DNA of 64,000 nucleotides from an uncultured Opitutia bacterium (GTDB taxonomy: Bacteria; Verrucomicrobiota; Verrucomicrobiia; Opitutales; Opitutaceae): NCBI GenBank assembly GCA_903840415.1, contig CAIMFY010000094.1:1-64000 (forward strand). The letters run 5' to 3'. This document shows, piece after piece, positions 3,585-34,698 of the stretch. The translations under genes were made by a program, and so were the position numbers. Each line of letters starts with the position of its first letter. Position 1 is the stretch's first letter. The notes under the pieces are model-generated. The model saw only the letters and a program-made list of their open reading frames with translations, did not search any database and was not told the DNA's origin.

Positions 3585-3696
3585 GGTGGGAGCGTCGCGG
3601 TGATTATTTTCGCGGTCAAGGCACGTGGCAATGCAGGGCGCCATCGGAGCGGCTGAGGGCTTGCGCCGGACGAACCCGACCGCACTGTGCGCTGGA

Positions 3697-17061: not shown

Positions 17062-18683
17062 ATCTGACGTGGCACATCGTCAAAAAAGATCTCCGGCGCA
17101 TGGCGTGGCCGGTGAGTGGATGGCTGGCGTTTGTTGCCGCGGCTTTGGTCTGGCTGGGAGCAATGCACATGCCTGAAGACAGTGTCCGTGCGGGCGATTT
17201 CTATAATTGGATCAACGGCTTGGGTGGACTCAAGACGTGGGCGGTCATCATGCAGGTGGTGACGGCGGCGCTGCTGGCGGCGCACCTGATGCTGGAGGAT
17301 GCCACCGTGGGCACGATGGGATTTTGGCTGACGCGACCGATCGCGCGCGGCCGGATGCTGGCGGCAAAATTGATGGCGGGCGGTCTGCTGCTCGTGGTGG
17401 CGCCGGTGATCGCGCTGACGCCGGTATGGCTGGCGAACGGATTTTCGCTCGGTGAAACAGCGATGGCGGCGGGCGAGTTCGCGGCGTGGCAGATTGCGCT
17501 GGTGGTGCTGGCGTTTGCGGTGGCATCGCTCACGAAGAATCTCGCGCAGTTCTTCTTCGCGGCGACGGGCATGGCGGTGGCGTTCGCCATGGTGGTTTCC
17601 ATCGCGAGTCTCGCATGGCAGCTGCCCTTCCAAGATTCTGATTTGTTGCGATCGCGGCAGATGCTGACGCTGTTTGCGCCAGTGCCGTTCATGCTGGCGG
17701 TGTTGGGTTGGCAGGTTTTCACGCGTCGCACGAAAGCTGGGTGGATCGCGGTCGGGGTGGGTCTGCTGGCGCTGCTCGCAGTCGGTGTCGCGTGGCCGTG
17801 GGACGTGACAGCAAACTGGCCGCGAGCGCGGGCGAGAATGCGTGCGACGGCGGTGGGCCTCGATGATTTGGCGGCGCGGATCGCGGTGAAAAAGATCGTG
17901 ACGCCGTTCGATCGCGCGCTGCCGCAAGCGGTGTTTGTGACGGTGAAGGGAGGGCCGATTGGCGAAGGATTTTTTGCGCCGGAGTCAGACAGCATCACGC
18001 TGCGTCTGGCAGATAAGCGCCGCATTCAACTCACGCTCTCGCCCGGCGGTCTCTGGGGCGAGGACGCTGCCATGCGCATCGCCGGTCTCAAGCGCGACGC
18101 CGATCCGGTTGAGTGGGGCATGGCGGGTCGGGTCTACGGTGTGCACGACTGGTCGGCGATGCGGGAGGCGCTGCAGGTATCGGGCATGCTGCAGTTCGCG
18201 TTTATGCACGGCCGGGTGGTGGCGGAGTTGCCGCTGCAGCCGGGGGCGCAGGCGCGCAGCGGATCGAGCACGATTCGGATCGTGGGGTTGGGCGGGAGCG
18301 AAGGGCTCAGCGAAACCTGCGTGGTCGTGGAAGAGCGCGACTCGGTTTTCATAGGCGATGTCGGCCAAAATGAGGGCCGCATGGTGAGGCAGAACGATCA
18401 TTCGCGGCGCGACTGCTACTTCCTCGTGAACCGCGCGCTCGGCGTGGCGAAATGCCTGCACATCGTCGAAAGCGGATCGGCGAACATGGCGTCGTTGCTC
18501 GTGAGCGTGCGGCAACTTTATTTTTCGTTCCCAGAACGCGTCGTGAATGGAAAACGCGAAGAGTTGGCCGGCTGGCGCGAAGGCGCGGTGTTGATCAAGG
18601 TGCGCTTCGAACTGGACAGCCGAACTTTCAGCCGGCTGACGACGGAGCGCGTTCCGCTCGAACTAGAGGAGGAAAAGAAATGA
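17058..18683 (+). CDS. ABC transporter permease with large C-terminal soluble domain (1)
   Basis: The protein has 541 residues, starting at the GTG 17058 that overlaps the ATPase stop. About the first 265 residues hold seven or so membrane spans (for example VSGWLAFVAAALVWLGAM, GGLLLVVAPVIALTPVWLA and WIAVGVGLLALLAVGVAW). FWLTRPIARGRMLAAKL is the cytoplasmic loop typical of ABC-2 type exporters. The remaining 275 residues form a soluble domain without spans, probably outside the membrane. It overlaps the next permease by ATGA, and both share the WxTRPI motif, so the two likely form a heterodimer. The exported substrate is unknown. Confidence 0.85.
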   Translation: MNLTWHIVKKDLRRMAWPVSGWLAFVAAALVWLGAMHMPEDSVRAGDFYNWINGLGGLKTWAVIMQVVTAALLAAHLMLEDATVGTMGFWLTRPIARGRMLAAKLMAGGLLLVVAPVIALTPVWLANGFSLGETAMAAGEFAAWQIALVVLAFAVASLTKNLAQFFFAATGMAVAFAMVVSIASLAWQLPFQDSDLLRSRQMLTLFAPVPFMLAVLGWQVFTRRTKAGWIAVGVGLLALLAVGVAWPWDVTANWPRARARMRATAVGLDDLAARIAVKKIVTPFDRALPQAVFVTVKGGPIGEGFFAPESDSITLRLADKRRIQLTLSPGGLWGEDAAMRIAGLKRDADPVEWGMAGRVYGVHDWSAMREALQVSGMLQFAFMHGRVVAELPLQPGAQARSGSSTIRIVGLGGSEGLSETCVVVEERDSVFIGDVGQNEGRMVRQNDHSRRDCYFLVNRALGVAKCLHIVESGSANMASLLVSVRQLYFSFPERVVNGKREELAGWREGAVLIKVRFELDSRTFSRLTTERVPLELEEEKK

Positions 18684-20425
18684 AGCTCGTGCTGGCCATC
18701 GTGCGGAAGGATTTCTGGCGGCTGCGGTGGATGCTGGCGGTTTGGCTGGCGGTGGCGGCGCTGCGGCTGGGTGTGGGTTTTTCGATTATCTTCGGGGTCG
18801 GCACTGACGGGCAGGCGCTGGCGCGGTGGCTTCAAGACATAGCGAATGGGCTCATGGTGCTGGGATTGGTGTTCACGTGGATGCTGACGGCGCTACTCGT
18901 GCAGGAGGATTTGCTCGTCGGATCGACTCAGTTTTGGGTGACGCGGCCGATTTCCGGCGCGCGACTGTTGGGCGCGAAAGTCGCCGGCTGGCTGCTTTTG
19001 CTTTGGCTGCCGGCGGTGGTGCTGACGCTGCCATGGTGGCTCACCTGCGGATTCGGGCCATGGGAAATTGCGCTGGCGGCGCTCGAGTTACTCTTGTGGC
19101 AAGCAGCGGCCTCGCTGCCGGCGGTGCTCGTGGCCGTCGTGACAAACAACTTGAGCCGGTTCGTCGTGTGGTCGTTTGCAGCCATTTTTGCGGCGGCGCT
19201 GCTCCCCGGCGTGTTGATGAAATTATCCGATGATCGGATTATTTACAATTTCTCCGATTCGCCATCATTGGCGGTCATATATTGGACGACGGCGGGATTT
19301 TTCACGGCGTGGGTGGTGGTGCGGCAATATCTCCGACGGGACATGCCGCAGCCTCGCGCGATCGGATGGGCGGTGGGTGGCCTGCTGCTGGCGCTGATGG
19401 TCGGAAGAGTGGTCGGAGGCTTGCAGGGCTGGGCGAGGTATGCCGGGGCGCAATGGAGCGACTGGCACGCGGAGCGGGCGAGCGGGGTGTCGCTGGTGTT
19501 GCAGGATTATTATTTCGAGGGTGGGAAAAAATCTTTGGACGTCGTGCGGTTGCACTCAGTGCTGGAGTTGCGCGGATTGCCGGATGATTTGGCTCTGGAT
19601 ACCGGCGATGGCGGCAAACAGACTTGGCGTTGGCCGGGTTTGCCGGACGTGACGCGGGGCGTGAGTCACGCCGCTAGGTGGTGGGCAAATATCGGCGACG
19701 ACGAGCGCGGCGTGCGCTCCGCGCTCGGTCGCATCGCCCGGCCAAAACCGGATGAGGAAACGGTTCGCTACGAGGCCCAGCGTCGCGCTGAACGCTTCGC
19801 GAAAGCACCACAAATTTTTCGGCGCGCAAAACAAGTGGCGGTGGGCGTCGAAATTTCCGAGGAACTGCTGGGGCCGACGTTCACGCGCATCAAGCAAACG
19901 CCGCCGGCTTACGAGGCGTCGGTGAGACTTCGTCTGATGCGGCCGGAACTGTGGGCGGAGGTGCCGCTGCAAGCCGGCGGCTGGCACTCGCACGCGGCGC
20001 ATGGGTTTCGAGTGGGCGCGCTGTCAAAGATCGATCCCGATGGGCCGGCCGATGCAAAGCACTATCCGAATCGAACCTGCTACGCTCCGTTCGTGGCGAC
20101 GCTGGCGGAGTTTTTCTGGGACACCCAACCGATGCGCTCGTGGTCCGCTTTCGATTGGAACAGTGCAGGATTATTTATCGTAAATCGAGTCGGTGGAGAC
20201 ATGTGGCGGCAACATGTGCGGAGCGGGCCCGCACTCACGATCAGTTCGGTGAGCATTCAGCGCTCGACGATGCAAGTGTGGCAACCGACGATGCGGCGTG
20301 GCGACGCGTGGGTGCCGCGCGATCCGAACTGGCTCGCGGGGACGACTGTGGCGATGGTCGGGTTTCGCGAGGAGGCGCGGTTTACGGCGGTGGTGAAGGC
20401 GGAGCGCTACGAGCCGGCGAAATGA
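18680..20425 (+). CDS. ABC transporter permease with large C-terminal soluble domain (2)
   Basis: The protein has 581 residues from the ATG at 18680, overlapping the previous stop, with GGAGGAAAAG just upstream. The frame is open further 5' but inside the previous gene. N-terminal spans include LAVWLAVAALRLGVGFSI and GLMVLGLVFTWMLTALLV, and the loop FWVTRPISGARLLGAKV matches the partner permease. After roughly residue 265 a soluble domain extends to the end. It is a paralog of the first permease with low overall identity. The pairing suggests two half-channels for one ATPase dimer. Confidence 0.83.
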   Translation: MKLVLAIVRKDFWRLRWMLAVWLAVAALRLGVGFSIIFGVGTDGQALARWLQDIANGLMVLGLVFTWMLTALLVQEDLLVGSTQFWVTRPISGARLLGAKVAGWLLLLWLPAVVLTLPWWLTCGFGPWEIALAALELLLWQAAASLPAVLVAVVTNNLSRFVVWSFAAIFAAALLPGVLMKLSDDRIIYNFSDSPSLAVIYWTTAGFFTAWVVVRQYLRRDMPQPRAIGWAVGGLLLALMVGRVVGGLQGWARYAGAQWSDWHAERASGVSLVLQDYYFEGGKKSLDVVRLHSVLELRGLPDDLALDTGDGGKQTWRWPGLPDVTRGVSHAARWWANIGDDERGVRSALGRIARPKPDEETVRYEAQRRAERFAKAPQIFRRAKQVAVGVEISEELLGPTFTRIKQTPPAYEASVRLRLMRPELWAEVPLQAGGWHSHAAHGFRVGALSKIDPDGPADAKHYPNRTCYAPFVATLAEFFWDTQPMRSWSAFDWNSAGLFIVNRVGGDMWRQHVRSGPALTISSVSIQRSTMQVWQPTMRRGDAWVPRDPNWLAGTTVAMVGFREEARFTAVVKAERYEPAK

Positions 20426-20472
20426 TCGAACGCAGACGTGACGGGCGGCCGAAAATCTGAAAGGACTCCGAT

Positions 20473-21246
20473 ATGAACAAACTGATCGTCGGATGGCTCG
20501 CGTTGACGATGGCGCTGGGAGCGGGAGCTCTATTTCTCCAACATGAAGCGAAGGCAGAATTACAGGCGGAGATAGCGGCGTTGCGCGCAGACGTGCTGCG
20601 GCTGAGCGAGCGACAGAAGGACGCGGCGGGGGCATCGCGTCCCCAGGTGACGGTGGCCGTGGAGGAAGTGAACGCGGCGAATGACCAACGGACGGAATTG
20701 GCGAAGCTGCGCGAGGAACTGGTGGCGTTGAAGAAGAGCACGCAGGAAATCGCGCGCGTCGCGCAGGCGGCGCAGTCGGGAGCAAAAGGCGAGAGCACGA
20801 TTCCCGTGGCGCTTACGCCCGTGGGGTCGTTGAAAAACGCCGGGCGCGCGACAGTGAAGGCGGCGTTGGAAACGGTGTTCGCGGCGGCGACTGGTGGCGA
20901 TGTGGACACACTGGCCAGCTCGATCATGCTCACGCCGCAGGCGGAGGCCAAGGCGGCTGCGTGGTTTGCCGGGCTGTCCGATGAGGCGCGAACCCAATAC
21001 GGCTCGCCCGAAAAAGTTGTCGCCCTGATGCTGGCGAAAGATGCGGCGGGCGTCACGGGCATCCAGGTGCTCGGCCAGCGCGACCTGAGCGCCGACACGA
21101 TCGGTGTGCGGGTGCGGATCGGGGACGAACAGGGAAATACGAAAGAGCAGGGGCTGGCCTTTCAACAAACCCCGGACGGACTGAAAGCGTTGATCCCCGA
21201 CAATGTGTTGGAGCGTTACGCGAAGCAGCTGCGCGGAGGAAAATGA
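20473..21246 (+). CDS. signal-anchored coiled-coil protein of unknown function
   Basis: The protein has 257 residues. The N-terminal hydrophobic segment LIVGWLALTMALGAGALFLQ is followed by a coiled coil (AELQAEIAALRADVLRLSER, and again near LAKLREELVALKKS). The C-terminal half, from about residue 115, is a compact domain (GRATVKAALETVFAAATGGD ... GLKALIPDNVLERYAKQL) that I do not recognise. It starts 47 bases after the second permease in the same direction, so it is probably the last gene of the GntR/ABC operon and an accessory protein on the outer face of the membrane. Confidence 0.7.
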   Translation: MNKLIVGWLALTMALGAGALFLQHEAKAELQAEIAALRADVLRLSERQKDAAGASRPQVTVAVEEVNAANDQRTELAKLREELVALKKSTQEIARVAQAAQSGAKGESTIPVALTPVGSLKNAGRATVKAALETVFAAATGGDVDTLASSIMLTPQAEAKAAAWFAGLSDEARTQYGSPEKVVALMLAKDAAGVTGIQVLGQRDLSADTIGVRVRIGDEQGNTKEQGLAFQQTPDGLKALIPDNVLERYAKQLRGGK

Positions 21247-21262: not shown

Positions 21263-24200
21263 TCAGGGGACTTCGTAAACTTCGATGAGGGCGACGCCGG
21301 TAGTGTTGTTTGCGCCGCTGACGAGCGCGCTATAACTGCCCGGCGGCACGGTGACGAGCAGGGCGGCGTCGGGCGACGCCGCGGCAAACGGAAACGCGCC
21401 GACTTTCGCGGCGGCGGCGGCGACTTCGGCCGGGTTGGCATTCGTACTCCAGCCCGCGTTGCCGGCGACGGCGGCGCCGGTGCCGTCGACCAGGGTGAGC
21501 ACAGGATGGGCGAGCGTGCCGCTGACGCCAAAAGCGGCGAGCGCCGGGCCGGCGGCGCGGACGAGAAGTTTTTTCGCCGACGATCCGCTCACCACGACGC
21601 CCGAGATGGCGATTTGCACACCGGTGCCGACGAACACGCGCGAGGAGAGATTAACGAGTCGCGGGCTGTCGTGGATGCCCTCGTAAACTTCGACGAGCGC
21701 GAGGCCGGTGCTGGTGCCCGCGCCGGTGAGTTGGACGGTGTAGTTGCCGGGTGCGAGCTGGCGCGAGATGATCGCGTCGAGACTGCCCACGGTCAGCGGA
21801 AAGGTGGCGGGCCAGTTCAACGAGGTGTAACTTTCCGCGGTGCCGATCCAGTTGTCGTTGGTGTCGATGGGCGCACCGGTGGAGTCGAAGAGCGTGAGGA
21901 TCGGATCGGGGAGGAAATCGGTGAGGCCGAATTGGGCGAGCCCGGGGCCGACGCCGCGGACGAGCACCCATTTCGGAGTGTCGCCCGCGATCACGAAGCC
22001 GGCGATGAGCGTGCGATCGCCGGCGCCGGCCAACCCGCGGGTCGAGATGTCGATGAGGCGCGAGGCCGGATCGAGCGAGACGGTGACGGCGGCGGTTTGC
22101 GTGCCGAGCGGATTGGTCAGCACGAGAGTGTAGGTGCCGGCGGTCGCAGAAGTGACAGCGGGGATTTCCAGCGCCCCGGCCTGTATGGCGGCAATGTAGG
22201 GAGTGGTGCTGGCGTTCGACGGCGTGATGACGCCGCTACTGTAGGGTGCGCCGTTGAAAAACCATTGGTAGGCGAGTGGCCCGGAGCCGACAGTGGAAAA
22301 CGTGATCTCCGCGCCGCGGCCGGGGCCGACAGCGAGATCGGCGGGCGGGCGGGTGATGGCCGGCGCGGCGGCGGGCACATGCACGAGTTGCACGGGATAA
22401 GTCAGGCTACCGGCGGCGTTGGTGACGGTGACGGAAATTGCGGCGTCGAGGCGAAGGTTGCTGAACGTCACGGTGTCGCTCGTCGGGAGATAGGGCGATT
22501 GATAGGTGCGGTCGGCGAAATAGCCGCTCCACGAATAGGTGAACGCGCCGGTGCCGGCGACGGCGGTGGAGAGTGTAGCATCGCCACCGCTCGTGACGGT
22601 GAGAGTGGGAGGCGTTGAATCATCGAGGGCAATAGGCGGATTGATCGGCACGGCGTTGGTTCCGACGAGGCGCAGGAAGGTGTTGGAGTCTTTGGAAATC
22701 AAGGTGCGACTGTCGGGCTGAACGACGATGGCCTTCAGCGCCGAGAAAACGCCCGAATAGTTTCCACTCCCGCGGAGCGTGAGATCGAGGGTGCCGTCGG
22801 GCTGCAGGCGCAGGACGGTGAGGAACGGGGAGAAATTATTGAAAGTGATGACCACGACGATGCGGCCCAAGGCATCGAGACCGGCGTGCATTCCGCCGCC
22901 GTATTTTGGGATGTAGCCGGTCTGGGTCAGAAACGTGGGATCGTTGGAGCCGTCGAGGTTCAGCCGTTGGATCATCCAAGTGCCGGAGCCGAAGTTGCCC
23001 GAGACGTATTGGGAGCCGAGCAGTGTCCGACCGTCGGGCAACACCGACAGGAATTGCATTTGATTGGAGGTGGACAGCACCGGCGTGAACGTGGGATCGA
23101 GCGAGCCGTCGGAGCGGAGTCGGGCGACCACGGCGGTGTCGGTGCTCGGCGGATAGAATCCCAATCCATTCGTAAATGCCGGCGAAGCGGCGACGACGAT
23201 GCGGCCGTCAGGTGTGAGTGCAATTCTTTGGATACCGAGCGACACGGTCGGGTCGTTCAAGAGCAGGGCGAGATCGGCGCCGGTGAAGGTGGCGTCGAGC
23301 GAGCCGTCGGGGTTGAGCCGGAGCGGGCGCGAGGTGTTGTTGGCGACGAGAATTTTTCCGTCGGGCTGGACAACGAGCTGCGCAATCGTCTGGCCCGGCA
23401 GGGTGGCGGGCGGAGCGAAGGTGGCGTCGGGCGCGCCGCTGGCGGCGAAGCGCGCGAGAAAAAGGACGGTGCCACCCGCGGTGCCGCCGGCGAGAATTTT
23501 CCTGTCGGTTTGGACGGCGAGAGCGTTAAGCGTGAGGCCGGTGAGAGGCTGGCTGGTGAAAGTCGGATCGAGGGCGCCGCCGGGCAGGAGGCGGGAGAGG
23601 GCGGTGGCGTTGGCGAGGAGAATTTTTCCGTCGGGTTGGAGCGCGAGTGCGGTCGGGCTGCCCTGACCAGACGGAGTGAACGTGGGATCGACGATGTCGG
23701 TGGGCGCGGGGAAATTGGCGAGCACGGTCAGCGTGGCGGCGGGGCTAGTGACGGAGCCGAGCGCGTTGGTCACGGTGACGACGTAGGGGCCGGCGTGAGC
23801 GGAGGAGACGGAGCGGAGTGGCAGCGTGTCGCCGGTCGCGCCGGGAATGGGCCGGCCAGCGAAGCTCCACTGATAGGAAAGAGGCGCTGTGCCGGTGGCG
23901 GTGACGGTGAGGAGCACGTGATTGCCCGCCGCCTCGGTGAGATTGGTAGGGGACGCGACGATGGTCGGCGCGCTCTTTGCGGTGGAGGCGCGCAGGATGG
24001 TGCCGCCGAAACCGACCGCGACGAGCATTGGGCCGTTGGCGGCGAGGGCGGTGAGAGTGTGGGTGTTGCCGGTGGGGTGGATAGTCCACGTGCCGGCATC
24101 GGGCGAGGTGAGGATCGAACCGTCGTCGGCGGCGGCGACGAAGGTGTTGTTGAAAAACGTGACGGCGCGCAGCGCTGCGGGAGCGAGGGTGCCGCGCCAG

Positions 24201-24874
24201 GTGGTCGCATCGGGCGAGGTCAGCACGAGGCCGCCCGCGCCGACGGCGACGAAGCGGTGCCGGGCATAGGTGACGCCTTCGAGATCGGCGGCGGTCGCGA
24301 CGGAGTGAGCGGCGAAATAATTGGCGTCGGCCGTCGTCACGATATGGCCGCGCTGGCCTGCGCCGACAAAACTGCCGGACGCGAAACAAAACCCGCGCAG
24401 CCAGCCGGTGAGCGCGCTGGTCCAGCCAAACGCGCTCGGTGGGACGGCGGTCCAATTCAGCCCGTCCGCCGAGGTAACAGCGCTGCCGTTTTCCCCGACC
24501 GCCAGCCAGCGGTCGCGACCAAACGCGACGGCGTTGAGGCGTTCGCCGGTGCCGCTCGGGCGCTGCGTCCAGACGAGACCGTCGGGAGAGGTGAGGAGCA
24601 GACCTTGATCGCCAACGACGACAAACTGATGGTTCGCGAAAGTGGCGCCGACGAGCCAGCTTGTGGTGCCACTGGCGCGAGGTGTCCAAACCGCACCGTC
24701 GGGCGAGGTGACGAGCGTGCCGTTTTCACCGACGGCGACAAAAAGCCCGGCCCCGCCGGCGACGCTCCAAAGATTTTGCCCGATGGGAGAGGCGGCGGCG
24801 GTCCACACCTCTTGCGCGCGCAAACCGCTGGCGAGCGTCGCCACGGTCAGGAAAAACACGCCGAAAAATTTCAT
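21263..24874 (-). CDS. very large secreted protein: propeller repeats, Ig-like domains, delta-60 repeats, EVYEVP tail
   Basis: The protein has 1203 residues from the ATG at 24874, with the signal peptide MKFFGVFFLTVATLASGLRA. Residues to about 310 are repeated units with TSPDG..W motifs (VAVGENGTLVTSPDGAVW and variants), like sialidase/Ycf48-type propellers. An Ig-like domain follows (PLSYQWSFAGRPIPGATGD), then a run of delta-60 type repeats (LALQPDGKILLANATA, LVVQPDGKILVANNTS, LDPTFTPV). Two more Ig-like segments and two copies of the shared C-terminal unit (WVLVRGVGPGLAQFG, LLVRAAGPALAAFG) close the protein at ALIEVYEVP. I see no catalytic site. A binding or structural role at the cell surface seems likely. 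It is 80 bases downstream of the subtilisin gene. Confidence 0.82.
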   Translation of the reverse strand: MKFFGVFFLTVATLASGLRAQEVWTAAASPIGQNLWSVAGGAGLFVAVGENGTLVTSPDGAVWTPRASGTTSWLVGATFANHQFVVVGDQGLLLTSPDGLVWTQRPSGTGERLNAVAFGRDRWLAVGENGSAVTSADGLNWTAVPPSAFGWTSALTGWLRGFCFASGSFVGAGQRGHIVTTADANYFAAHSVATAADLEGVTYARHRFVAVGAGGLVLTSPDATTWRGTLAPAALRAVTFFNNTFVAAADDGSILTSPDAGTWTIHPTGNTHTLTALAANGPMLVAVGFGGTILRASTAKSAPTIVASPTNLTEAAGNHVLLTVTATGTAPLSYQWSFAGRPIPGATGDTLPLRSVSSAHAGPYVVTVTNALGSVTSPAATLTVLANFPAPTDIVDPTFTPSGQGSPTALALQPDGKILLANATALSRLLPGGALDPTFTSQPLTGLTLNALAVQTDRKILAGGTAGGTVLFLARFAASGAPDATFAPPATLPGQTIAQLVVQPDGKILVANNTSRPLRLNPDGSLDATFTGADLALLLNDPTVSLGIQRIALTPDGRIVVAASPAFTNGLGFYPPSTDTAVVARLRSDGSLDPTFTPVLSTSNQMQFLSVLPDGRTLLGSQYVSGNFGSGTWMIQRLNLDGSNDPTFLTQTGYIPKYGGGMHAGLDALGRIVVVITFNNFSPFLTVLRLQPDGTLDLTLRGSGNYSGVFSALKAIVVQPDSRTLISKDSNTFLRLVGTNAVPINPPIALDDSTPPTLTVTSGGDATLSTAVAGTGAFTYSWSGYFADRTYQSPYLPTSDTVTFSNLRLDAAISVTVTNAAGSLTYPVQLVHVPAAAPAITRPPADLAVGPGRGAEITFSTVGSGPLAYQWFFNGAPYSSGVITPSNASTTPYIAAIQAGALEIPAVTSATAGTYTLVLTNPLGTQTAAVTVSLDPASRLIDISTRGLAGAGDRTLIAGFVIAGDTPKWVLVRGVGPGLAQFGLTDFLPDPILTLFDSTGAPIDTNDNWIGTAESYTSLNWPATFPLTVGSLDAIISRQLAPGNYTVQLTGAGTSTGLALVEVYEGIHDSPRLVNLSSRVFVGTGVQIAISGVVVSGSSAKKLLVRAAGPALAAFGVSGTLAHPVLTLVDGTGAAVAGNAGWSTNANPAEVAAAAAKVGAFPFAAASPDAALLVTVPPGSYSALVSGANNTTGVALIEVYEVP

Positions 24875-24954
24875 ATGGGGAGAGGAGGCGCGACACCAGC
24901 ACGCCCCATCCACCGACCATGACAATCGACGAGGGAAAACCCACCACGGGAAGC

Positions 24955-26020
24955 CTACGGCACCTCGTAAACTTCGATGAGGGCGACACCGCTGGTGCCG
25001 CCGACGCCGCTGACTTGGGCAGTGTAGCCGCCGGGGGCGAGTGTGACGAGAAGGGCGGAGTCGGCGGTCGGCGCGGTGCCGAGGGAGAACGCGCCGGTCT
25101 GCGCAAACGCGGCGAGAAGTGCGGGCGTCGCGCCCCAGCCGGCGTTGGACTGCAGGAGATTGCCGGGGGCGTCGAAGAGCGAGAGCGCCGGGGTGGCGAG
25201 CGTGCCACCGACGCTAAAGGGCGGAACGGCGAGGCCGGGACCGATGCCGCGGATGAGGACGGTCTTGGCGACGTTGCCGGTGATCGTGAAGCCGGCAGTG
25301 AGCGCGCCGCCGGTGGGAACTTGGGCGAGCGTGGAGAGGTTGACGAGTTTCGCGCCGGTGCCGATCGCGGTGTCGTAGATTTCGGCGAGCGCCTGACCGG
25401 CGGTGGCGCCGGTGATTTGGGCGGTGTAGTTGCCGGGCGTGAGAGCTTTCGTGATGACGGCGGCATCGAGGCTTCCCGGCGTAAGCGAAAACGCTCCGGT
25501 CGCCGCCATGGCAGCGGTTATCGCTGAACTCCAGTTGTCGTTGAAGGCAGCGACAAGAGTCTGGGAATTGGGCCCGAGCAGCGTGAGCACGGGATCGGCG
25601 ATGGTATTGACGACGTGGAAGGGTGTGAGGCCGGGGCCGATACCGCGGAGGAGGAGAATTTTAGTACCAGTGCCGCCGAGCACGAAGCCGACGGTGAGGG
25701 TTTGCGCGCCGGGGCCGGCGGTGGTTTGCACAGAGAGATTGGTCAGGAGCGCGGGGACCGCCGCGGCGGTCGTGATGGCGGCGGGCGGGCTGACCGTGGT
25801 GCCACCGCCATTGCTGGTGACGGCGACGGTGTAGCTGCCGGCGGTCGCGGTGGTCGCGCTGGCGACGGAGTAGATCGCTGACGTGGCACCGGCGATGGGT
25901 GCGCCGTTGTCGCTCCATTGATAGGTGAATGGTCCGGTGCCGGTCGCGGCGACGCTGAGCACGAGTCCGCCTCCGAGCCCGACGGTCTGCGACTGCGGCG
26001 CGGTGGTGATGACCGGCGCG
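24955..26020 (-). repeat. dispersed duplication, copy B (Ig-like plus two C-terminal units)
   Basis: This is the 3' end of the subtilisin gene and matches 855-1915 in the same orientation and frame, with 17 mismatches in a 222-base stretch counted by eye. It differs from copy A by a few in-frame indels, for example one extra codon pair in AVPPFSVGG and a changed segment in VGGTSG. Confidence 0.85.
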
Positions 26021-29000
26021 GGCTGTGGGGCGATGGCGCGGCCGAGTCGGCGGGAGTTGAAATGAAACTGCGGCCAGGGGCCGCTGGCCACGCCCACTCC
26101 GAGGTCGAAGGCGTAGAGTTTATGATCGTTGCTGCCGATGTAGAGGCGCGAGCCACTGATGACAGGTGAAGAGCGCACCCAATCGCCGGTCGGGTAAGTG
26201 CGTTTGAGTGTGCCGGTGGGATTGAGGGCGTAGAGTTGGTTGTCGTAGCAGCCGATATAAACGACACCGTTCGCGTCGACGGCGGGCGAACTCGCACGGA
26301 CTTGATCGCCAAGCTGGAACGTCCAGCGAATTGCGCCAGTGGCGGTGTTGACCGCGTAAAACAGAGTGTCGTAGCAACCGAAATAGGCGGTGCTGCCGTC
26401 GGCGCTTAGCGCCGGCGACGAGGTGATCGCACCACCGGTGGTGCAGGTCCAGCGGCGCGTGCCGGTCGGTGTAAGCGAATAAAACGAGCCCGCAGTGGTG
26501 GCGCCGGAACTGGTGCCGAGCGAGCCGAAGTAAAGATTTCCGGAGGCATCGAGCGCGGGCGCGGTGTAGAGTTGGTTGTCGGCTTGGAAACTCCATTTTT
26601 GCGCGCCGTTACTCGGGTTGAGCGCGTAGAGATAGTTGTTGCCGCTCGGAATGTAGATCGTGCCGTCGGGCGCGACGGTGGGAGAGGCGTAGCTGAGGCC
26701 GTTCGTCAGGAAGCGCCATTTCTGCGAGCCGTCGGCGGGATTGAGCGCGTAGAGATAACCGTCGTCGCCTTTGATGTAGATGGTGCCGTCGGCGGCGAGG
26801 GCGGGGGCGTTGGAGATGGACGTCGGACTAGCCGTGGACGGAAGAGTGGATGCCCACTTTTTCGTGCCGTCGGGAGAGAAAGCATAAACTGTCCCGTCAG
26901 TGCCGCCGACGTAGGCGGTGCCGTCGTCGGCAATCGCCGCAGCGGCGGTATCGAAAATTCCGGTGATGGCGGTGCTGGCCCATTTTTTGGAGCCGTCGGA
27001 GTTGAACGCGTAGAAGATGCCGTCGGTGCTACCGACATAAACGCTGCCATCTGGCGCGACTGCGGGCGCCGAGGTGACGGCGCTGGTAGTGAGGCCCTGC
27101 CACAGCGAATCGGTGAGCGACAAGTGAAACGTGCCGAGCAGCACGGCACTGCCGCCACTCGGCGGCTTCGCATCGACGGTGAAATAATACGTCGTGCCCG
27201 CGGTGGCGGTGAACGTGCAGAGCGCCGACGTCTCGGTCGTGATGGTGGTGCCGGGGTTGGCTTCGTTGTAGGCGTTGTCGCTAGCGGCGATGAGCGTGAG
27301 CGCGTTGACGGCGCTGCCGGTGTAAACGGCGAGCAACGGATCGAGGTCGGCGCTGTAGGCTGAGACTTGGAAACGCTGCGTCGTGGGCGCGGTCCACTTA
27401 TACCAAAGCGAGCGGCCGCCGGCGTTATTGAGGATGCGCGGTTCGCCAGTTTCGCGGGTCGCGCCGGCGTTAGTCGCCGTGACAAGTGCGCTCAAACCAG
27501 TCAGCACCTGCGCGCCTGAGAAATTATCGTTGGGCGGGACGATGCTGAGATTGAGTTTGGTGAAACCGGTCGCGCCGGCTTTGCCGTCGACGACGATCTC
27601 GTAGGTTGTGCCGGCTTGCGCGGTGAAACTCACGCGGCTGGTGAGCAGCGGGCCGTCGTTGTCGTTCGATGTGACAGGCGTAAGCGAAGCTAGGGTCGTT
27701 CCGGTGTAAACGGCCAGCAGAGTGTCATAGCCGCTGCCGCTGGTATCGATGTTGACGGTGGCGGTGGTGGGCGCGGTCCATTCCCACCAGAGCGTGGCAC
27801 TCGGAGCGATGCCGGCGTTGGCTGGCTCGCCGTTTTGTGAGGTGGCGCCGATGTTGTTGGAGCGCGTGGTTACGCTGCTGCCGACGAGATGGCCGCGGGT
27901 TTCAAAATCGTCGTTGAACGGCCGGTTGTCGGTCGAGACGAGCGCAGCGGCGAGGTTGAGGCGGCCGCCGGTCTGGCAGTAGCCAGCGTAGGCGGCACGT
28001 GCATCGGTGCTGCGCAAGAGGCGATTGATGAGCTGGCGGTACGTATCGTTGGGAAATTTTTGTTTCATCAACGCGAGCGCACCGGACACCATCGGCGCCG
28101 CCATCGAGGTGCCGCTGAGCGTGGCCGAGCTGGTGCTGTTGGAAAAGTAGGTCGAAAGGATTTGCTCGCCGGGCGCGAAGAGCTCGACGGCGCCGGAGCC
28201 ATAGTTGGAAAATGTGGAGCGATCTTCGAGGCGCGTGGAGCTGCCGACGGCGACGATGTTGTCCAGCGGCAGGCTCGCCGGGTAATGCGCCGAGACGTCC
28301 ATGTTCGAGGCGTCGTTGCCGGCGGCGGCGACGAAGATGATGCCGGCAGCGCGCGCGGCGGAGACGACGGCTTGCTCCGACGACGAAAGCTGCGAGCCGC
28401 CCGATTCGCCGAAACTGCCGTTGATGATCTGCGCACCGTGCTGGATCGCGTAATTGAAACAGGCGACCTCGTCTGAGAGCGAGCCGGTGCCTGCGCTCGT
28501 CAGGAATTTCAGGATCATCAACTGCACTTTCCAGGCGACGCCGGTGACGCCTGCGCCGGCGGCGACATTGTTGCCCACCGCGCCGATGATGCCGGCGACG
28601 TGCGTGCCATGGCCGACATCGTCAGTCGGCACGCCGGTGAGCGTGCCATGCCCGGTGGTGGCGCGCGCGCCGTTCACATCGCCGATCGTCGGGGCGGGGT
28701 TCACCCAGAAATTAGAAACAAGGTCGCCGTGCGTGAGCATTGCGCCGGAGTCGATGATGGCGACGATGACATTCGGTGCGTCGTGGAGCGTGTCCCACGC
28801 GGTGGTTGCGCTGATGTCGGCGCCGACGCGGCCGCCGCTCTGGCCGGTATTTTGATACTGCCATTGCGAGGAGAACTGCGCGTCGTTCGGCACCACGTCG
28901 GCGTGGCGGATGAGATCGCGTTCGACAAATTCGTAGCGACCGGTGGCCTGCAGCCGCGCGACCGCTTGATCGGCGGAATCGGTGGCGGCGAGATCGAGCA

Positions 29001-29298
29001 CGCGCAGATCGCCGAAGCGGGAAAACTTTTGGCGGACGTTCAGACCTTCCTGTGCTTCATCGGCATCCACCGTGGCGCGAGTTCGTGCCAATGGTTTCGC
29101 GAGGATCGAATGGTCGGTATAACCTTGGGTGAGTTCCTTCGCGGTGAATGGCGTGGCGTCGTCGGCAGGCGTGGTGGCGGCGTGGACCATGCCCCTGAGG
29201 GCAAAAATTAAAAGTGCGATCGATCGAAACAGAATTCTAGATTTCGCGGGATGGGAGAAAAACACTGAAGTTGGTCGTGTTCGGCCGATCGTCATCAC
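24955..29298 (-). CDS. secreted subtilisin-like (S8) protease with PQQ-type propeller, Ig-like domain and EVYEVP tail
   Basis: The protein has 1447 residues from a GTG at 29298 that overlaps the previous stop (an ATG at 29295 is also possible). After a signal segment (SIALLIFALRGMVHA) and a propeptide-like region comes an S8 domain. The triad is in VAIIDSGAMLTHGD (Asp about 182), DVGHGTHVAGIIGA (His about 232) and LSGTSMAAPMVSGAL (Ser about 398). Two bacterial pre-peptidase C-like beta domains follow (WWEWTAPTTATVNIDTSGSG, LWYKWTAPTTQRFQVSAYS). Then come at least six propeller repeats of the form VAPDGSVYVGSTDGIFYAFN, an Ig-like domain (PFTYQWSDNGAPIAGA) and two copies of the shared C-terminal unit ending in EVYEVP. 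It probably degrades external protein while held at the surface. It is the middle gene of a three-gene run. Confidence 0.88.
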   Translation of the reverse strand: MMTIGRTRPTSVFFSHPAKSRILFRSIALLIFALRGMVHAATTPADDATPFTAKELTQGYTDHSILAKPLARTRATVDADEAQEGLNVRQKFSRFGDLRVLDLAATDSADQAVARLQATGRYEFVERDLIRHADVVPNDAQFSSQWQYQNTGQSGGRVGADISATTAWDTLHDAPNVIVAIIDSGAMLTHGDLVSNFWVNPAPTIGDVNGARATTGHGTLTGVPTDDVGHGTHVAGIIGAVGNNVAAGAGVTGVAWKVQLMILKFLTSAGTGSLSDEVACFNYAIQHGAQIINGSFGESGGSQLSSSEQAVVSAARAAGIIFVAAAGNDASNMDVSAHYPASLPLDNIVAVGSSTRLEDRSTFSNYGSGAVELFAPGEQILSTYFSNSTSSATLSGTSMAAPMVSGALALMKQKFPNDTYRQLINRLLRSTDARAAYAGYCQTGGRLNLAAALVSTDNRPFNDDFETRGHLVGSSVTTRSNNIGATSQNGEPANAGIAPSATLWWEWTAPTTATVNIDTSGSGYDTLLAVYTGTTLASLTPVTSNDNDGPLLTSRVSFTAQAGTTYEIVVDGKAGATGFTKLNLSIVPPNDNFSGAQVLTGLSALVTATNAGATRETGEPRILNNAGGRSLWYKWTAPTTQRFQVSAYSADLDPLLAVYTGSAVNALTLIAASDNAYNEANPGTTITTETSALCTFTATAGTTYYFTVDAKPPSGGSAVLLGTFHLSLTDSLWQGLTTSAVTSAPAVAPDGSVYVGSTDGIFYAFNSDGSKKWASTAITGIFDTAAAAIADDGTAYVGGTDGTVYAFSPDGTKKWASTLPSTASPTSISNAPALAADGTIYIKGDDGYLYALNPADGSQKWRFLTNGLSYASPTVAPDGTIYIPSGNNYLYALNPSNGAQKWSFQADNQLYTAPALDASGNLYFGSLGTSSGATTAGSFYSLTPTGTRRWTCTTGGAITSSPALSADGSTAYFGCYDTLFYAVNTATGAIRWTFQLGDQVRASSPAVDANGVVYIGCYDNQLYALNPTGTLKRTYPTGDWVRSSPVISGSRLYIGSNDHKLYAFDLGVGVASGPWPQFHFNSRRLGRAIAPQPAPVITTAPQSQTVGLGGGLVLSVAATGTGPFTYQWSDNGAPIAGATSAIYSVASATTATAGSYTVAVTSNGGGTTVSPPAAITTAAAVPALLTNLSVQTTAGPGAQTLTVGFVLGGTGTKILLLRGIGPGLTPFHVVNTIADPVLTLLGPNSQTLVAAFNDNWSSAITAAMAATGAFSLTPGSLDAAVITKALTPGNYTAQITGATAGQALAEIYDTAIGTGAKLVNLSTLAQVPTGGALTAGFTITGNVAKTVLIRGIGPGLAVPPFSVGGTLATPALSLFDAPGNLLQSNAGWGATPALLAAFAQTGAFSLGTAPTADSALLVTLAPGGYTAQVSGVGGTSGVALIEVYEVP

Positions 29299-32174
29299 GG
29301 CACTTCATAGACTTCAACGAGGACCATGCCAGTTTGATTCGGGGCGACCGCGTTGGCCGCGACCGGTGCAGCGGCGGCCTGAAGGGTATAACCTCCCACG
29401 GGCAATGAACTGACGAGCGCGGCATCACTGTTGGTCGTCTTCAAAGCGAAGGCACCCACGGCTGGAAACACGGCGGTGAGCGCGGCCGCAGAACCGGTCG
29501 CACCACCCTGCGACCAATTGTTGTTGGTCGCGACCGTCGTGCTGCCGTTGAGCACAGTGATAAGAGGATCGCCGACCAACGCGCTGGCCGGGATGCCGAA
29601 ATCAGCGAGCCCGGGTCCGACCGCACGAACCAGAAGCGTGCGCGGATTGGCGCCTTGGATGACAATACCAGGGACGACCATGTCGCCATCGCTGTTGATC
29701 GCTGCGAGGGTAGAAAGATTGGTGAGGCGCGTGGAATTTTTCGAGACATCGTAGACTTCCGCGAGCACATCGCCGACCGCGCCATTCACGCCTTTGATCG
29801 CGATTGTGTAACTGCCGGGTGACAGCGAGAGAACCACCGCAGCATCGGCGCTGCCGGGGGTGAGCGCAAACGCACCCACCGCGGCGGCTGCGCTCGAGAC
29901 CGCGGCGGACACCGCCGCGCCGGATTGATCCCAGCCTTGATTGGCGACGAGCACAGTGGAGCCGGAATTGACTTCGATGCGCGGGGCGAGCAGGGCGGTG
30001 GCGACACCGAAATTGGTCAGCGCCGGGCCGACACCACGGATCAGCAACGTGGCTTTTTCAGGACCGGCAATGTTAAAGCCAAGAGTGAAGCTGTCGCCGA
30101 CGGTGTAGATTTTTCCAAGGGTCGACAGATTGGCGAGCCGACCAGGCACCGGACTGGCGGCGCCCGCCACACGATTGTTGAGAAATGCGATCGTGCGGGC
30201 ATCGACATCGCTGTAAAACGACGACCCGGCGTAGGCGACACCGAGTTCGGTCAGAACGTTGGCCGCCTGGCTTTGATAGGCGGAGGGCAACGCGGCGGCG
30301 ACGGCGGCGCTGGTTGGAGCTGAAACGGGATAGCCGTTGGCATCGAGCAGCCCGGCGGACTTGATCGCGTTGAAGACCGTCGTGGCATCCGTGCCAGTGA
30401 ACGCGCTGGAGGTGATCGCCAAGGCGCGGAAGCGATTGGCGTAAACCGGAGTGGGAGTGTTGCTCGTGGTGGAGGAGGTGACGCCACGACCAACGAGGAG
30501 TTGCGCGTTGGAGATGGCTGAGGCGTTGCCGCCGCTTCCCGTCGCGACGTCGTTGGCCGCGAGCGCGAAAAATTGCGGGATGTGCGAGGTGACCGCGAGG
30601 GTCTCGCTGCTGGCGGCAAGGTAAAGCACCACGCCGGCGATGGCTCGAGTCGGCGCGGTGGTCGCGAGGAGTTCACCGTAACTGGCCGCGGCATCACCAC
30701 CGGCCCCGAGGCCGACCAGGAAAATGGGTGCCTGGCTCGTAAGCCTGAATTTATCGATGGAGGCCGCGATGTTAAGGGCGTCGAGATTTTTGGCAAGGGT
30801 GGCTTGCCCGGCCCATGCGCCCGTCGTGCGGTTGACATTATTCAGGGCAGCTACGCCGTAGCCTGCCGCGACGAGGTCGCGGACGAACATAGTTTGCTCC
30901 GGGTTGGTGAACCAGTCGGTAATCGCGCCACCGGTTTCGTGCAGTAGAATCACGATTCCGCGGGCGCCAGAAGGTATGTAAGAGGCCAGTGTGGTTGTGG
31001 CGGTGGTAGTTTGACCGCTGGCGTTGGTGGTCGCCTGCGGATTGAAGTTGGTGGTGACGTTGGGCGTCCACGCCGGCGCAGGTTTGTAGGTCGCGGTCAA
31101 CAAAACGGGCGCGCTCGGCACCGTCACCACCGCGTGGGCGAGCGAGCTAGCGAGTGCGCCGGCGCCGAGGGTCGAAGTGTCGCCCGTCCACTTGTCGAAT
31201 ACGAATCCCGCAGCCGGCGGATCGGCGAAGATATCGACGAGTGATCCTCCGGCATACGTCCCGCCTCCACTGCCACCGGTGACAGTGACCGTGGTGGTCG
31301 GACCTGAGCCGGCCACGACGAAGAACGCGTGCAGACTAACCGTCACCAAACTTTGGAGCTTTACCGCACACGTGAGTTCCTTGAGTCCGGGTTTGCCGGG
31401 CTTGATGGTGACAGTGGCCGTCGTTGCACTACCCGCGATTGAGGCGTCGCCACTGACAGCCCAGCGAAAGGTGCGGTCACCGTTTTGGGCATCCGGAACA
31501 CTCGCCGTGGTGTTGCCGCCGGTGGTAGCCACAGCGGCTGGCAGGCTAATCGCCCCGGCGAGCGAAGGCGAAATGACGGTGACCGTTGCCGTTGTGACGA
31601 TGGCGGATGAACCTGAAGGTGTGACTGAAACTGTGAGTGTCATCGCCCCAGCGGTATCCGCATTGTAGGTAATCGTGGCTTTGGTAGGATCGGAGGTAAT
31701 CGTGCCGCCAGTGATGGTCCACAAATAGGTGTTGGTAGCTGGTGTCGCGGAAGTGCCACCAGCAGTAGGCACTGTCACGACTGCTGAACCTGTTCCACCG
31801 ACCAGCAAACCCAAGGTCGTCGTGATAACAGGAGTTGTTGAAGTAGTTCCGCCGGTATTGCCCGCGCCGCCGTTTTTGCCTGCCCCGCCACCACCGCCAG
31901 TCGTAATAGTCCCCCCGCCGCCAATTGCCGTTCCGCCACCGCCAGTCGTAATAGTCCCCCCGCCGCCTGCCGCAATACCGCCACCACCGACTGTCGCACC
32001 ACCGCCAGCGCCACCTCCGCCGGCGCCGCCACCGCCGCCACCTTGGGCAAAGGCGATATTTGCGAAAAGAAGCGCGAACCCAAAGGGCGTAATGAGCGAC
32101 AAAATCTTGGGCCGGTAGAGCGAGCGGGTCTGTCTAGGATTAGGTATGGCGTGCATCTGAAATTTGAGACGCAT
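29295..32174 (-). CDS. secreted Gly-rich protein with alpha/beta-hydrolase-like domain lacking the nucleophile, EVYEVP tail
   Basis: The protein has 959 residues; a start at ATG 32156 (MHAIPNPRQT) is equally likely. The signal peptide (ILSLITPFGFALLFANIAFA) is followed by about 75 residues of Gly/Thr repeats. Next come Ig/PKD-like segments (NTYLWTITGGTITSDPT, GDRTFRWAVSGDASIAG) and an InlB B-repeat-like unit (FVFDKWTGD ... PVLLTATYK). A hydrolase-like fold then starts near residue 385 (GARGIVILLHETGGAITDW, MFVRDLVAAGYGVAALN). Where active enzymes have GxSxG it reads FLVGLGAGGDAAASYGE (about residue 485), so the nucleophile Ser is Gly. Two copies of the shared C-terminal unit end the protein in VEVYEVP. 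It is probably a binding protein rather than an enzyme. It leads the three-gene run. Confidence 0.78.
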   Translation of the reverse strand: MRLKFQMHAIPNPRQTRSLYRPKILSLITPFGFALLFANIAFAQGGGGGGAGGGGAGGGATVGGGGIAAGGGGTITTGGGGTAIGGGGTITTGGGGGAGKNGGAGNTGGTTSTTPVITTTLGLLVGGTGSAVVTVPTAGGTSATPATNTYLWTITGGTITSDPTKATITYNADTAGAMTLTVSVTPSGSSAIVTTATVTVISPSLAGAISLPAAVATTGGNTTASVPDAQNGDRTFRWAVSGDASIAGSATTATVTIKPGKPGLKELTCAVKLQSLVTVSLHAFFVVAGSGPTTTVTVTGGSGGGTYAGGSLVDIFADPPAAGFVFDKWTGDTSTLGAGALASSLAHAVVTVPSAPVLLTATYKPAPAWTPNVTTNFNPQATTNASGQTTTATTTLASYIPSGARGIVILLHETGGAITDWFTNPEQTMFVRDLVAAGYGVAALNNVNRTTGAWAGQATLAKNLDALNIAASIDKFRLTSQAPIFLVGLGAGGDAAASYGELLATTAPTRAIAGVVLYLAASSETLAVTSHIPQFFALAANDVATGSGGNASAISNAQLLVGRGVTSSTTSNTPTPVYANRFRALAITSSAFTGTDATTVFNAIKSAGLLDANGYPVSAPTSAAVAAALPSAYQSQAANVLTELGVAYAGSSFYSDVDARTIAFLNNRVAGAASPVPGRLANLSTLGKIYTVGDSFTLGFNIAGPEKATLLIRGVGPALTNFGVATALLAPRIEVNSGSTVLVANQGWDQSGAAVSAAVSSAAAAVGAFALTPGSADAAVVLSLSPGSYTIAIKGVNGAVGDVLAEVYDVSKNSTRLTNLSTLAAINSDGDMVVPGIVIQGANPRTLLVRAVGPGLADFGIPASALVGDPLITVLNGSTTVATNNNWSQGGATGSAAALTAVFPAVGAFALKTTNSDAALVSSLPVGGYTLQAAAAPVAANAVAPNQTGMVLVEVYEVP
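31891..31967 (-). repeat. 45-bp-period direct repeat coding for the Gly/Thr-rich segment
   Basis: A 32-base block is identical at 31891-31922 and 31936-31967, spaced 45 bases (15 codons) apart. It encodes GGGGTITTGGGG-type repeats. Nearby degenerate units suggest slippage or unequal exchange, so length may vary among strains. Confidence 0.85.
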
Positions 32175-32328: not shown

Positions 32329-34698
32329 TCAAGCCTTTTCAAGCCAGGCGGCGAGTGTTTCAGTGTCGAGGAGATTGGTGCCAAACTGGTATTCGGGTGC
32401 GAGCAGGCTGGCGTAGGTGGGTTCGAGGAAGCGACGGCAATGGAGAATCACGCGGGCTTGCTGGCCGGGGGCGCGAACTAGTCGGCCGAGGGCTTGATTC
32501 ACCTTGGTCATGCCGGGGATTTGGTAAACGCGGCGAAACGCCGCCTCTCGGCCGAGCGCGGAAAATTCGGCGAGGCGCGCGCGCTGGATGGCGTTGACCT
32601 CGGGGAGCGCGGGACCGACGACCATCGCATGCGTGATGCGGCCACCTAGCACGTCGATGCTTTCGGCAAAACTAGAGCCAAGCACGAGGAACAGCGCATC
32701 GGCAAACGCGAGCGATTCCTCGACCCACGTCGTTTGCGCCGCGAGTTCACGAAGCTTGGGCTGGAGGGCGACGCGGAGTGGGGCCGCGCGTTCGAGTTCG
32801 CGAGCGACGGACTCGGCGTAGGCATAACTCGGAAAAAAAACCGCCACCGGACTACGCGCCGAAATTTGCAGCGCGGCGATGGTTGCGGCGGTGGTGGCAA
32901 AGTAGCGGGAGCGGTGCTGAAAAGTCGTGTCGACCCGCGCATCGACCGCGACGTCGTAGGCGGCGTCGCGCCACGGCGTGTGGGCGCGGAGGTGGGTGGG
33001 CGGCGTGAGATGGGCGTCGAACGACGCCAGTCCCACAGTTTCGGCAAACGTGTCCGTCGGCGAAAGCGTTGCGCTCGCAAAGACGGCACCGCCGAACGTG
33101 TGGAGCATTTCGCCGATGGTCGTCGCTGCATCGAGGCACGTGAACGCGACTTCGCCGGCGCGCGGGCACCAGAGGAGTTTTTTGAGCGCGGGATTGGCGA
33201 GCCACTCCGCCAGATCGCGCGTCTGCCAGAGAATGTCCGCGAACCTCTGGCCGAGTGCCGCGGAATCGGGTGGAGTGGCGTCGAGTTGCACGCCGATCTT
33301 TGCCAACGTGTCCGCTGCGTCGGCTTCGAGCGCAGGGTCCAACTGGTCGACCGGTTGCAGCGCCATTAGCAGCCGGGTCCAGCTTTCCCAAGCACGAACC
33401 AGCGGAGTCGCGGCGTGTTGATGATCGAGTTCGGTGAGGAGAGCGCGGGCGTCGTCCGCAAGCACGAGATGGGAGTGGGCATCGGCCACGCGGGCCGGCA
33501 GGTTGTGCGCCTCGTCAATCAGCAGCAGCGTGCGCGCCGGATCAAAACCGGGCTGATCGAAGAAGAGGCGGCGGTTGCGCGGGGCGAAGACGTAATTGAA
33601 ATCACCGATCCAGACATCGTTGAACGCGAGGGCGGCGCGGGTGATTTCGTAGGGGCAGATGTGCGCGGCGCGACCGGCGGCGCGAAGCGTGTCGAGGTCG
33701 CGGGCGTGGCGTTCGTCCAGGTAAAAGCGGGCGAGTCCGCTTTCCGGCCAGCGCGCAGCAATGCCATCGAGGAATGTGCAAGACTCGCGCACGCAGTGGA
33801 AGGTGGTGTTGATGCAGTGCTCGGCTTTGTTGCGGACGTGCCACGCTGCGACGGACTTGCCGCCCTCGCCAGCCGACATGGCGCTGAGCGTTCGCACGAC
33901 TTGGAGTTGACCGGTGGATTTGCTGGTGAGGTAAAGGGCGCGATCGAAGTGGCCGGCGCGGAGCAGGCCGAGGGCGAATTCGAGTAGCACGCCGGTCTTG
34001 CCGAAACCGGTGGGCGCCTCGAAGAAGACGAGCGGATTGTTTTCAAATGCCGCGGTGAGTTCGGTCTGCGTCGTCTCTTGCCCCGGCCGCAAGTGAGCGA
34101 ATGCCGGATGGAAACGAAGCCCGCGCAATCGCTCCCGCGCCCGGCGCCGCAGATCCAGAAACTCGGCGACGCGATCGAGTTGGGCGCGGAAAAGCGCGTC
34201 GTCCGCCGGCGTGAGCGCGATCGTCTGGGCGAGACCGCTGTGCGCTTCGACGAAGATGAGTTGAGAGTGGAGCACCGTGGGCGCGGCGTCGGCGCGAAAG
34301 CGCCAGAGCGCCGCGTAGGTGGCGAGTTGGACGAAATATTCCGGATAGTCGGCGCGCAGTGCCGACTCATCGGCCGGCAACGGACGCGTGACGGTCTTGA
34401 TCTCCAACAGTGTAATGCGCGCCTCCGCCCGGATCAGTTGATCGATGCGACCGGTGAGTGTAAGCGTCCAGCCGCGGTGAAACACCTGACCAGTGATCGC
34501 GATCTCAAACTCGGCGGCGGCGCCATGGTCGGTGGTGGCCTGCGCGCGGAGTTCGTTGTGCCAGTGCGTGCCGAGTTGAGCGCGCCAGAGGCACGTCGCG
34601 CCGCCGCCGGCGTCGGGCGGACCGACAGTGAAGTTGGCGAATTCGCCGGCGCTGAGCGCAGCGGTGCGGGCGTCGAGATCGAACTGCATCGCGCTCAC
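32329..34698 (-). CDS. RecB-type nuclease fused to an XPD/DinG-like Fe-S DNA helicase
   Basis: The protein has 789 residues. The N-terminal 190 or so form a PD-(D/E)XK nuclease of the RecB/Cas4 kind: GRIDQLIRA, LLEIKTVTRP (E-x-K, about residue 98) and the QxxxY motif in YFVQLATYAALW. The helicase follows: Walker A FEAPTGFGKTGV (about residue 233), an Fe-S cysteine cluster (HCINTTFHCVRESC and HICPYE), the DEAH box LLIDEAHNLP (about 394), and C-terminal motifs including VFFPSYAYAES, VLGSSFAESIDV and QALGRLVRAPGQQARVI. XPD/DinG enzymes unwind 5' to 3' and often act on R-loops, G-quadruplexes or damaged DNA. The added nuclease suggests end processing. It overlaps the RecO-like gene by ATGA, consistent with a repair role. 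Confidence 0.87.
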   Translation of the reverse strand: MSAMQFDLDARTAALSAGEFANFTVGPPDAGGGATCLWRAQLGTHWHNELRAQATTDHGAAAEFEIAITGQVFHRGWTLTLTGRIDQLIRAEARITLLEIKTVTRPLPADESALRADYPEYFVQLATYAALWRFRADAAPTVLHSQLIFVEAHSGLAQTIALTPADDALFRAQLDRVAEFLDLRRRARERLRGLRFHPAFAHLRPGQETTQTELTAAFENNPLVFFEAPTGFGKTGVLLEFALGLLRAGHFDRALYLTSKSTGQLQVVRTLSAMSAGEGGKSVAAWHVRNKAEHCINTTFHCVRESCTFLDGIAARWPESGLARFYLDERHARDLDTLRAAGRAAHICPYEITRAALAFNDVWIGDFNYVFAPRNRRLFFDQPGFDPARTLLLIDEAHNLPARVADAHSHLVLADDARALLTELDHQHAATPLVRAWESWTRLLMALQPVDQLDPALEADAADTLAKIGVQLDATPPDSAALGQRFADILWQTRDLAEWLANPALKKLLWCPRAGEVAFTCLDAATTIGEMLHTFGGAVFASATLSPTDTFAETVGLASFDAHLTPPTHLRAHTPWRDAAYDVAVDARVDTTFQHRSRYFATTAATIAALQISARSPVAVFFPSYAYAESVARELERAAPLRVALQPKLRELAAQTTWVEESLAFADALFLVLGSSFAESIDVLGGRITHAMVVGPALPEVNAIQRARLAEFSALGREAAFRRVYQIPGMTKVNQALGRLVRAPGQQARVILHCRRFLEPTYASLLAPEYQFGTNLLDTETLAAWLEKA

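Follow-up and report, generated by a model that had tools for sequence, protein, structure and literature searches.

PPC domains (PF04151) and the S3 domains of the collagenases ColG and ColH are beta-jelly-rolls that sit, often in tandem, at the C-termini of secreted enzymes, and protease E495 carries a pair of PPC domains at its C-terminus that bind protein substrate and are in part cleaved from the enzyme (PMC3327674). Other C-terminal elements serve as sorting signals. Those of the PEP-CTERM/exosortase, LPXTG/sortase and GlyGly-CTERM/rhombosortase systems belong here, as do the C-terminal domains of type IX secretion (TIGR04183, TIGR04131), in which a beta-sandwich acts as an address on diverse Sec-exported cargo.

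The module described here, from a 64,000-nucleotide stretch of DNA of an uncultured Opitutia bacterium (the window), is similar to several of these. Its unit of ~130 residues is longer than PPC (~100 residues), is found on dozens of unrelated proteins per genome, and keeps strictly to the chain end. Unlike the type IX domains it forms a tandem pair, has no basic end and matches no profile of theirs, and unlike the weakly similar DVUA0089/FDP_fam domain (NF038127) it is a pair with a fixed end. With substrates of type II secretion and type IV pili its carriers share gene linkage to a secretin operon, and secretin-dependent export would be predicted for them. The tail was undescribed by the family models searched, although its predicted fold resembles tail domains of secreted proteases, and the motif was not named in the literature searched; what is new is the position of carrier genes directly after a secretin gene in module-positive genomes.

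The module pair in the window and in two genomes

All four of the window's carrier ORFs proved real, and each closes with two units of ~130 residues, EVYEVP and a stop, as the sequence-only reading had proposed. An alignment of the eight units has 20 invariant positions across ~130 columns, and against a profile of this set every unit scored above 150 bits (E 1e-45 to 1e-55). The features are as follows.

855 to 3881, minus strand: carrier 1; Endonuclease_NS, Ig domains, C-terminal module pair
1257 to 1643, minus strand: carrier 1, penultimate unit; ends E-I-Y-D
858 to 1244, minus strand: carrier 1, terminal unit; ends EVYEVP, then stop
21263 to 24925, minus strand: carrier 2; DUF5122-type propeller, Ig domains, module pair
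21671 to 22060, minus strand: carrier 2, penultimate unit
21266 to 21661, minus strand: carrier 2, terminal unit
24955 to 29298, minus strand: carrier 3; subtilase, weak PPC-like region, PQQ/BamB-like propeller, Ig, module pair
25363 to 25749, minus strand: carrier 3, penultimate unit
24958 to 25350, minus strand: carrier 3, terminal unit
29295 to 32174, minus strand: carrier 4; Gly-rich N-terminus, no confident Pfam domain, module pair
29739 to 30140, minus strand: carrier 4, penultimate unit
29298 to 29729, minus strand: carrier 4, terminal unit
858 to 1911 and 24955 to 26021 (approximate): the two copies of a 3' cassette common to carriers 1 and 3

Carriers 2 to 4 lie head to tail, with a 4-base overlap between carrier 4 and the start of carrier 3. 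The true start of carrier 1 likely lies 3' of the first ATG, and that of carrier 2 is likely Met18 of the ORF. Elsewhere in the window are a DEAD_2/Helicase_C_2 helicase with a PD-(D/E)XK nuclease match at its N-terminus (32329-34698, minus strand), an exosortase (PF09721; 43365-44240, plus strand) ~11 kb from the carrier cluster, and a plus-strand set (16147-21246) of an ABC ATPase, an ABC-2 membrane protein and two proteins (657 and 257 aa) that match no Pfam family, which may resemble a gliding-type (GldA/F/G) transporter.

A search with the eight-unit profile identified 39 units in 20 proteins of the window's own genome (4.9 Mb, 98% complete), five of them partial or at or near contig ends, so that their starts are unseen. 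The second unit finished within 2 residues of the chain end in 18 of these carriers, all 18 with Pro as the last residue; the exact EVYEVP, which had been called invariant and is so in the four window proteins, was present in 10. The two exceptions are a 346-aa ORF in which the pair has only a signal peptide before it and 9 residues after it (L038:3509-4546), and a DUF1800 protein in which the pair follows the signal peptide and ends Y-D (L047:3839-7249); an N-terminal or internal pair is seen in a few carriers, L047 and L127 being examples.

An unbiased count came from the complete, single-contig genome G021, which belongs to another genus and has 93 units in 49 readable proteins, 42 of them with two units. 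The last unit came within 3 residues of the chain end in 43 of the 49 and within 9 in 46, and the unit is overwhelmingly terminal there as in the window's genome. Because Pro was last in only 18 of the 43 chains that stop at the last unit, the position at the chain end is general and EVYEVP a local preference: the conserved feature is the stop at the end of the second unit, and EVYEVP is the preferred ending. In two G021 proteins (L229, L249) a lone unit precedes a segment that closes with a fasciclin-like NGVIH.ID motif, recognized by eye. In a pooled set, 145 of 157 distinct proteins carried two units. Terminal units of this set ended E-x-Y-E in 133 of 151 cases and internal units E-x-Y-D in 141 of 151, a sample biased for endings as it was mostly gathered with a pattern favouring E-Y-E ends; codons at the ending were mixed, and near-even at Glu (for example, GAG 55, GAA 52). 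In the carriers the chain stops with the last strand, in E-x-Y-E-x-P, and has no transmembrane helix, hydrophobic segment or basic tail there, in agreement with the earlier exclusion of PEP-CTERM and LPXTG signals and setting GlyGly-CTERM aside as well.

The cargo ahead of the pair had been described as an unrelated nuclease, subtilisin, propeller and pseudo-hydrolase. Pfam matches (Endonuclease_NS with Ig, a DUF5122 propeller with Ig, and subtilase with a PQQ-like propeller and Ig) bear out the first three, and the pseudo-hydrolase found no supporting Pfam family. Carriers in general span Endonuclease_NS nucleases, S8 subtilases, DUF5122 propellers, a kumamolisin pro-domain with NHL repeats, M11/M66-like metalloprotease with RCC1, GH28, CAP, Ig/Big_7 repeats and Ig-repeat giants. 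As expected of exported rather than cytoplasmic proteins, 89 of 122 carriers were positive for a signal peptide, against 138 of 511 control ORFs, by a crude rule. The nuclease has orthologs in G007, G019 and G022 (70-79% identity over 230 aa); it always ends with the pair, its total length varying from 1,008 to 3,185 aa and the pairs being only ~40% identical; distant nucleases (~31% identity) have no pair.

Linkage to secretin genes and the preferred reading

Secretins were located in 21 genomes of the family, and linkage was scored at 42 loci in 13 module-positive genomes. A carrier was the gene directly after the secretin at 10 of the 42 loci (0.28 expected) and lay within the fetched window at 18 (4.7 expected). 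The expectations assume the carrier numbers of G302 and G377, and the p-values take no account of the common descent of linked loci; on the secretin tree the "adjacent" label needs at least 4 changes. Direct linkage is limited to two secretin classes. In the window's own genome, a 2,774-aa carrier starts 11 bases after a PilQ/GspD-like secretin in a PilMNO-PilQ-like operon, the preceding genes being PilM-like and GspL/GspM-like. At another locus of this genome (L140:3781-15794, C102), a 1,774-aa carrier overlaps the end of an Amuc_1098-family secretin that follows Amuc_1101- and Amuc_1100-family genes; the Amuc_1098 cluster is pili-like in Akkermansia (PMC5332112). At 7 of the 18 loci, other than the 10, homologous carriers are convergent on a secretin at 3.2-4.7 kb, beside a GspD-GspE-type pair in which the next ORF was assigned to GspE by its C-terminal sequence.

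The sequence-only reading had called for a co-occurring outer-membrane secretion gene. Linkage points to secretins, but secretins were present in 21 of 21 genomes tested, whether the module was present or absent, and because module-free genomes have them too they are not a machine specific to the module. Of the genes compared across the 21 genomes, none was found to be required by the module. Exosortase was rejected as a partner: it occurs in 20 of the 21 regardless of the module, and is not beside carriers in G000 or G021. The secretin-linked carriers are mutual homologs, either Ig-repeat giants or Ig proteins, and it may therefore be the cargo rather than the tail that explains the linkage; G004 encodes a homologous giant cargo without the tail.

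With a little less than even confidence, we favor the view that the pair serves many proteins as a C-terminal tail for sorting or for retention at the surface, and that this tail may be coupled to export through secretins (type II/type IV pilus). This reading accounts for the terminal position, the independence from cargo, the differing endings of the two units and the secretin linkage. In its favor are also the exact number of two units, the stronger constraint on the terminal unit, the excess of signal peptides, the grafting of a near-identical 3' cassette onto unrelated cargo (both described below) and the nuclease that keeps its pair at widely differing lengths. Carriers would leave the cytoplasm by Sec, through their N-terminal signal peptides, and fold in the periplasm, where the C-terminal pair might be recognized for passage through the outer membrane, for holding at the cell surface, or both. 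The likeliest exit would be a secretin-type channel of a type II secretion or type IV pilus-like system, because carriers are coupled to such operons. Also counting against this reading are the non-terminal pairs in a few carriers and the substrate binding of PPC-like folds elsewhere. The sorting or attachment role first proposed thus agrees with diverse, exported cargo ending in the same pair and with the linkage, but it is the best reading rather than a demonstrated one because the fold lies near substrate-binding PPC and collagen-binding domains.

A bolder version, which we consider improbable, makes the pair the recognition tail of an undescribed Opitutaceae outer-membrane sorting system, in which a secretin route would read a folded double jelly roll, type II/type IV pilus machinery having arrived independently at a logic like that of type IX secretion. 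Substrate choice by type II-like systems is a long-standing question, as their substrates are not known to share a signal. A lineage in which 20-50 unrelated exported proteins carry one folded tail, some of them encoded right behind a secretin, offers a direct test of it.

The predicted fold, binding and stability

AlphaFold predicted the single unit (pLDDT 95, pTM 0.89) and the pair (pLDDT 94, pTM 0.88) as one and two beta-jelly-rolls, and the high pTM of the pair points to units held in a fixed orientation to each other. The single predicted unit was closest to the C-terminal jelly roll of Tk-subtilisin (Tk-SP; Z 10.5, 2.7 Å over 96 residues), followed by the ColG collagen-binding domain (1nqj; Z 9.5, 2.3 Å over 91) and Bacillus anthracis PPC (5sv5; Z 9.0, 2.3 Å over 92), and the ColG tandem s3a-s3b was the top Foldseek match for the predicted pair. 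The predicted fold places the unit among the PPC-like beta-jelly-rolls, and since GOLD domains and other jelly rolls also reach Z 8-9, this placement does not prove common descent. A viral structure library gave no meaningful match to the predicted fold.

Sequence comparisons gave the unit no named enzyme or adhesin family, consistent with the earlier reading: no Pfam model matches it, and NCBIfam matches are sub-threshold where scores were shown. In 33 of 53 units the second half weakly resembles NF038127 (best E 1.6e-7), with scores under the 29-bit cut-off of that model both for the best of the four full carriers (25.1 bits, P0002) and for the first unit of A2 (19.2 bits). A PDB sequence search with the unit profile returned a chance match only (E 1.3), and the profile had no significant similarity to the PPC-like region of carrier 3.

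The fold prediction, one of the checks first proposed, yielded a confident jelly roll but one that resembles domains which elsewhere bind substrates. It is best explained by a binding tail, the main rival account but a somewhat unlikely one in our estimation, in which the pair would attach to a polymer or protein (plant polysaccharide, matrix or a proteinaceous substrate) and bring a released enzyme to its target, with sorting playing no part; the tandem PPC domains of E495 are a precedent. An identical tail on cargo sharing no substrate is difficult to reconcile with this account, binding needs neither the exact chain end nor the difference between terminal and internal endings, and the PPC profile matched only 1 of 53 units (E 0.043, below the gathering score). 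If the pair is a binding domain, it would be an undescribed family explaining how plant-matter degraders hold a mixed enzyme set in place, and many "hypothetical" Opitutaceae proteins would become annotatable.

For the jelly-roll domains of subtilases a stabilizing role, possibly linked to calcium, has been proposed. By analogy, the double jelly roll could be a folding or stability cap that shields long extracellular proteins from proteolysis, again perhaps with calcium, which we regard as decidedly improbable. The subtilase jelly roll as closest fold, the apparent rigidity of the pair as one body, and conserved acidic and Asn positions in the unit would suit such a cap, but it leaves unexplained both the restriction of the module to one lineage and the difference between terminal and internal ends, the second of which a sorting tail accommodates.

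A shared 3' cassette, constraint and distribution

Carriers 1 and 3, a nuclease and a subtilase with unrelated upstream cargo, have in common a 1,064-bp 3' segment of 86.6% identical DNA that takes in a single Ig domain with the two units and ends where the gene does. This segment is a grafted 3' cassette, so the tails of these two proteins (P0001 and P0003) are not independent. The unit tree does not resolve first and second copies into two clean clades, and since at least 5 switches are forced, pairs have been remade. Paired units can be each other's nearest relatives; those of carrier L039 are sisters, yet end Y-D and Y-E, respectively.

Such exchange, the sister units within pairs and expansions to 101 units per genome would all be expected of a selfish or neutral 3' cassette that recombines among exported genes without a common function. 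We judge this very unlikely, as units at ~40% identity still keep their frame, fold positions, pairing and chain end, and the nuclease retains its tail across four genera. Constraint is stronger on the terminal unit than on the penultimate: the terminal unit outscored its partner against the profile in 34 of 41 G021 pairs (Wilcoxon p=4e-4), and mean paralogue identity was 40% for terminal and 36% for penultimate units in G021, and 47% and 42% in the window's own genome.

That the pair is a type IX C-terminal domain in a lineage outside the Bacteroidota, suggested by the like logic of a beta-sandwich at the extreme C-terminus of diverse Sec-exported proteins, is barely credible, given that TIGR04183 matched 2 of 53 units (best E 0.022) and Pfam Por_Secre_tail reached 19.9 bits against a cut-off of 27 in one protein. 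A search for SprA gave 0 of 21 genomes, with the control genomes silent too.

The pair is nearly confined to the Opitutaceae, a family of soil and freshwater bacteria. Named matches among the best 80 of 563 were all to Opitutaceae, Opitutae or Verrucomicrobia assemblies. Among 388 genomes sampled evenly across the phylum, the module was present in 18 genomes of the family and absent from at least 18 others, with units per genome ranging from 0 to 101 within the family; beyond it, one more genome in the order and two in the class were positive, and none elsewhere in the sample. Two IMG/VR "viral" contigs (L133, L134) carry an identical 524-aa ORF with one terminal unit ending EVYEVS, and these may represent host DNA.
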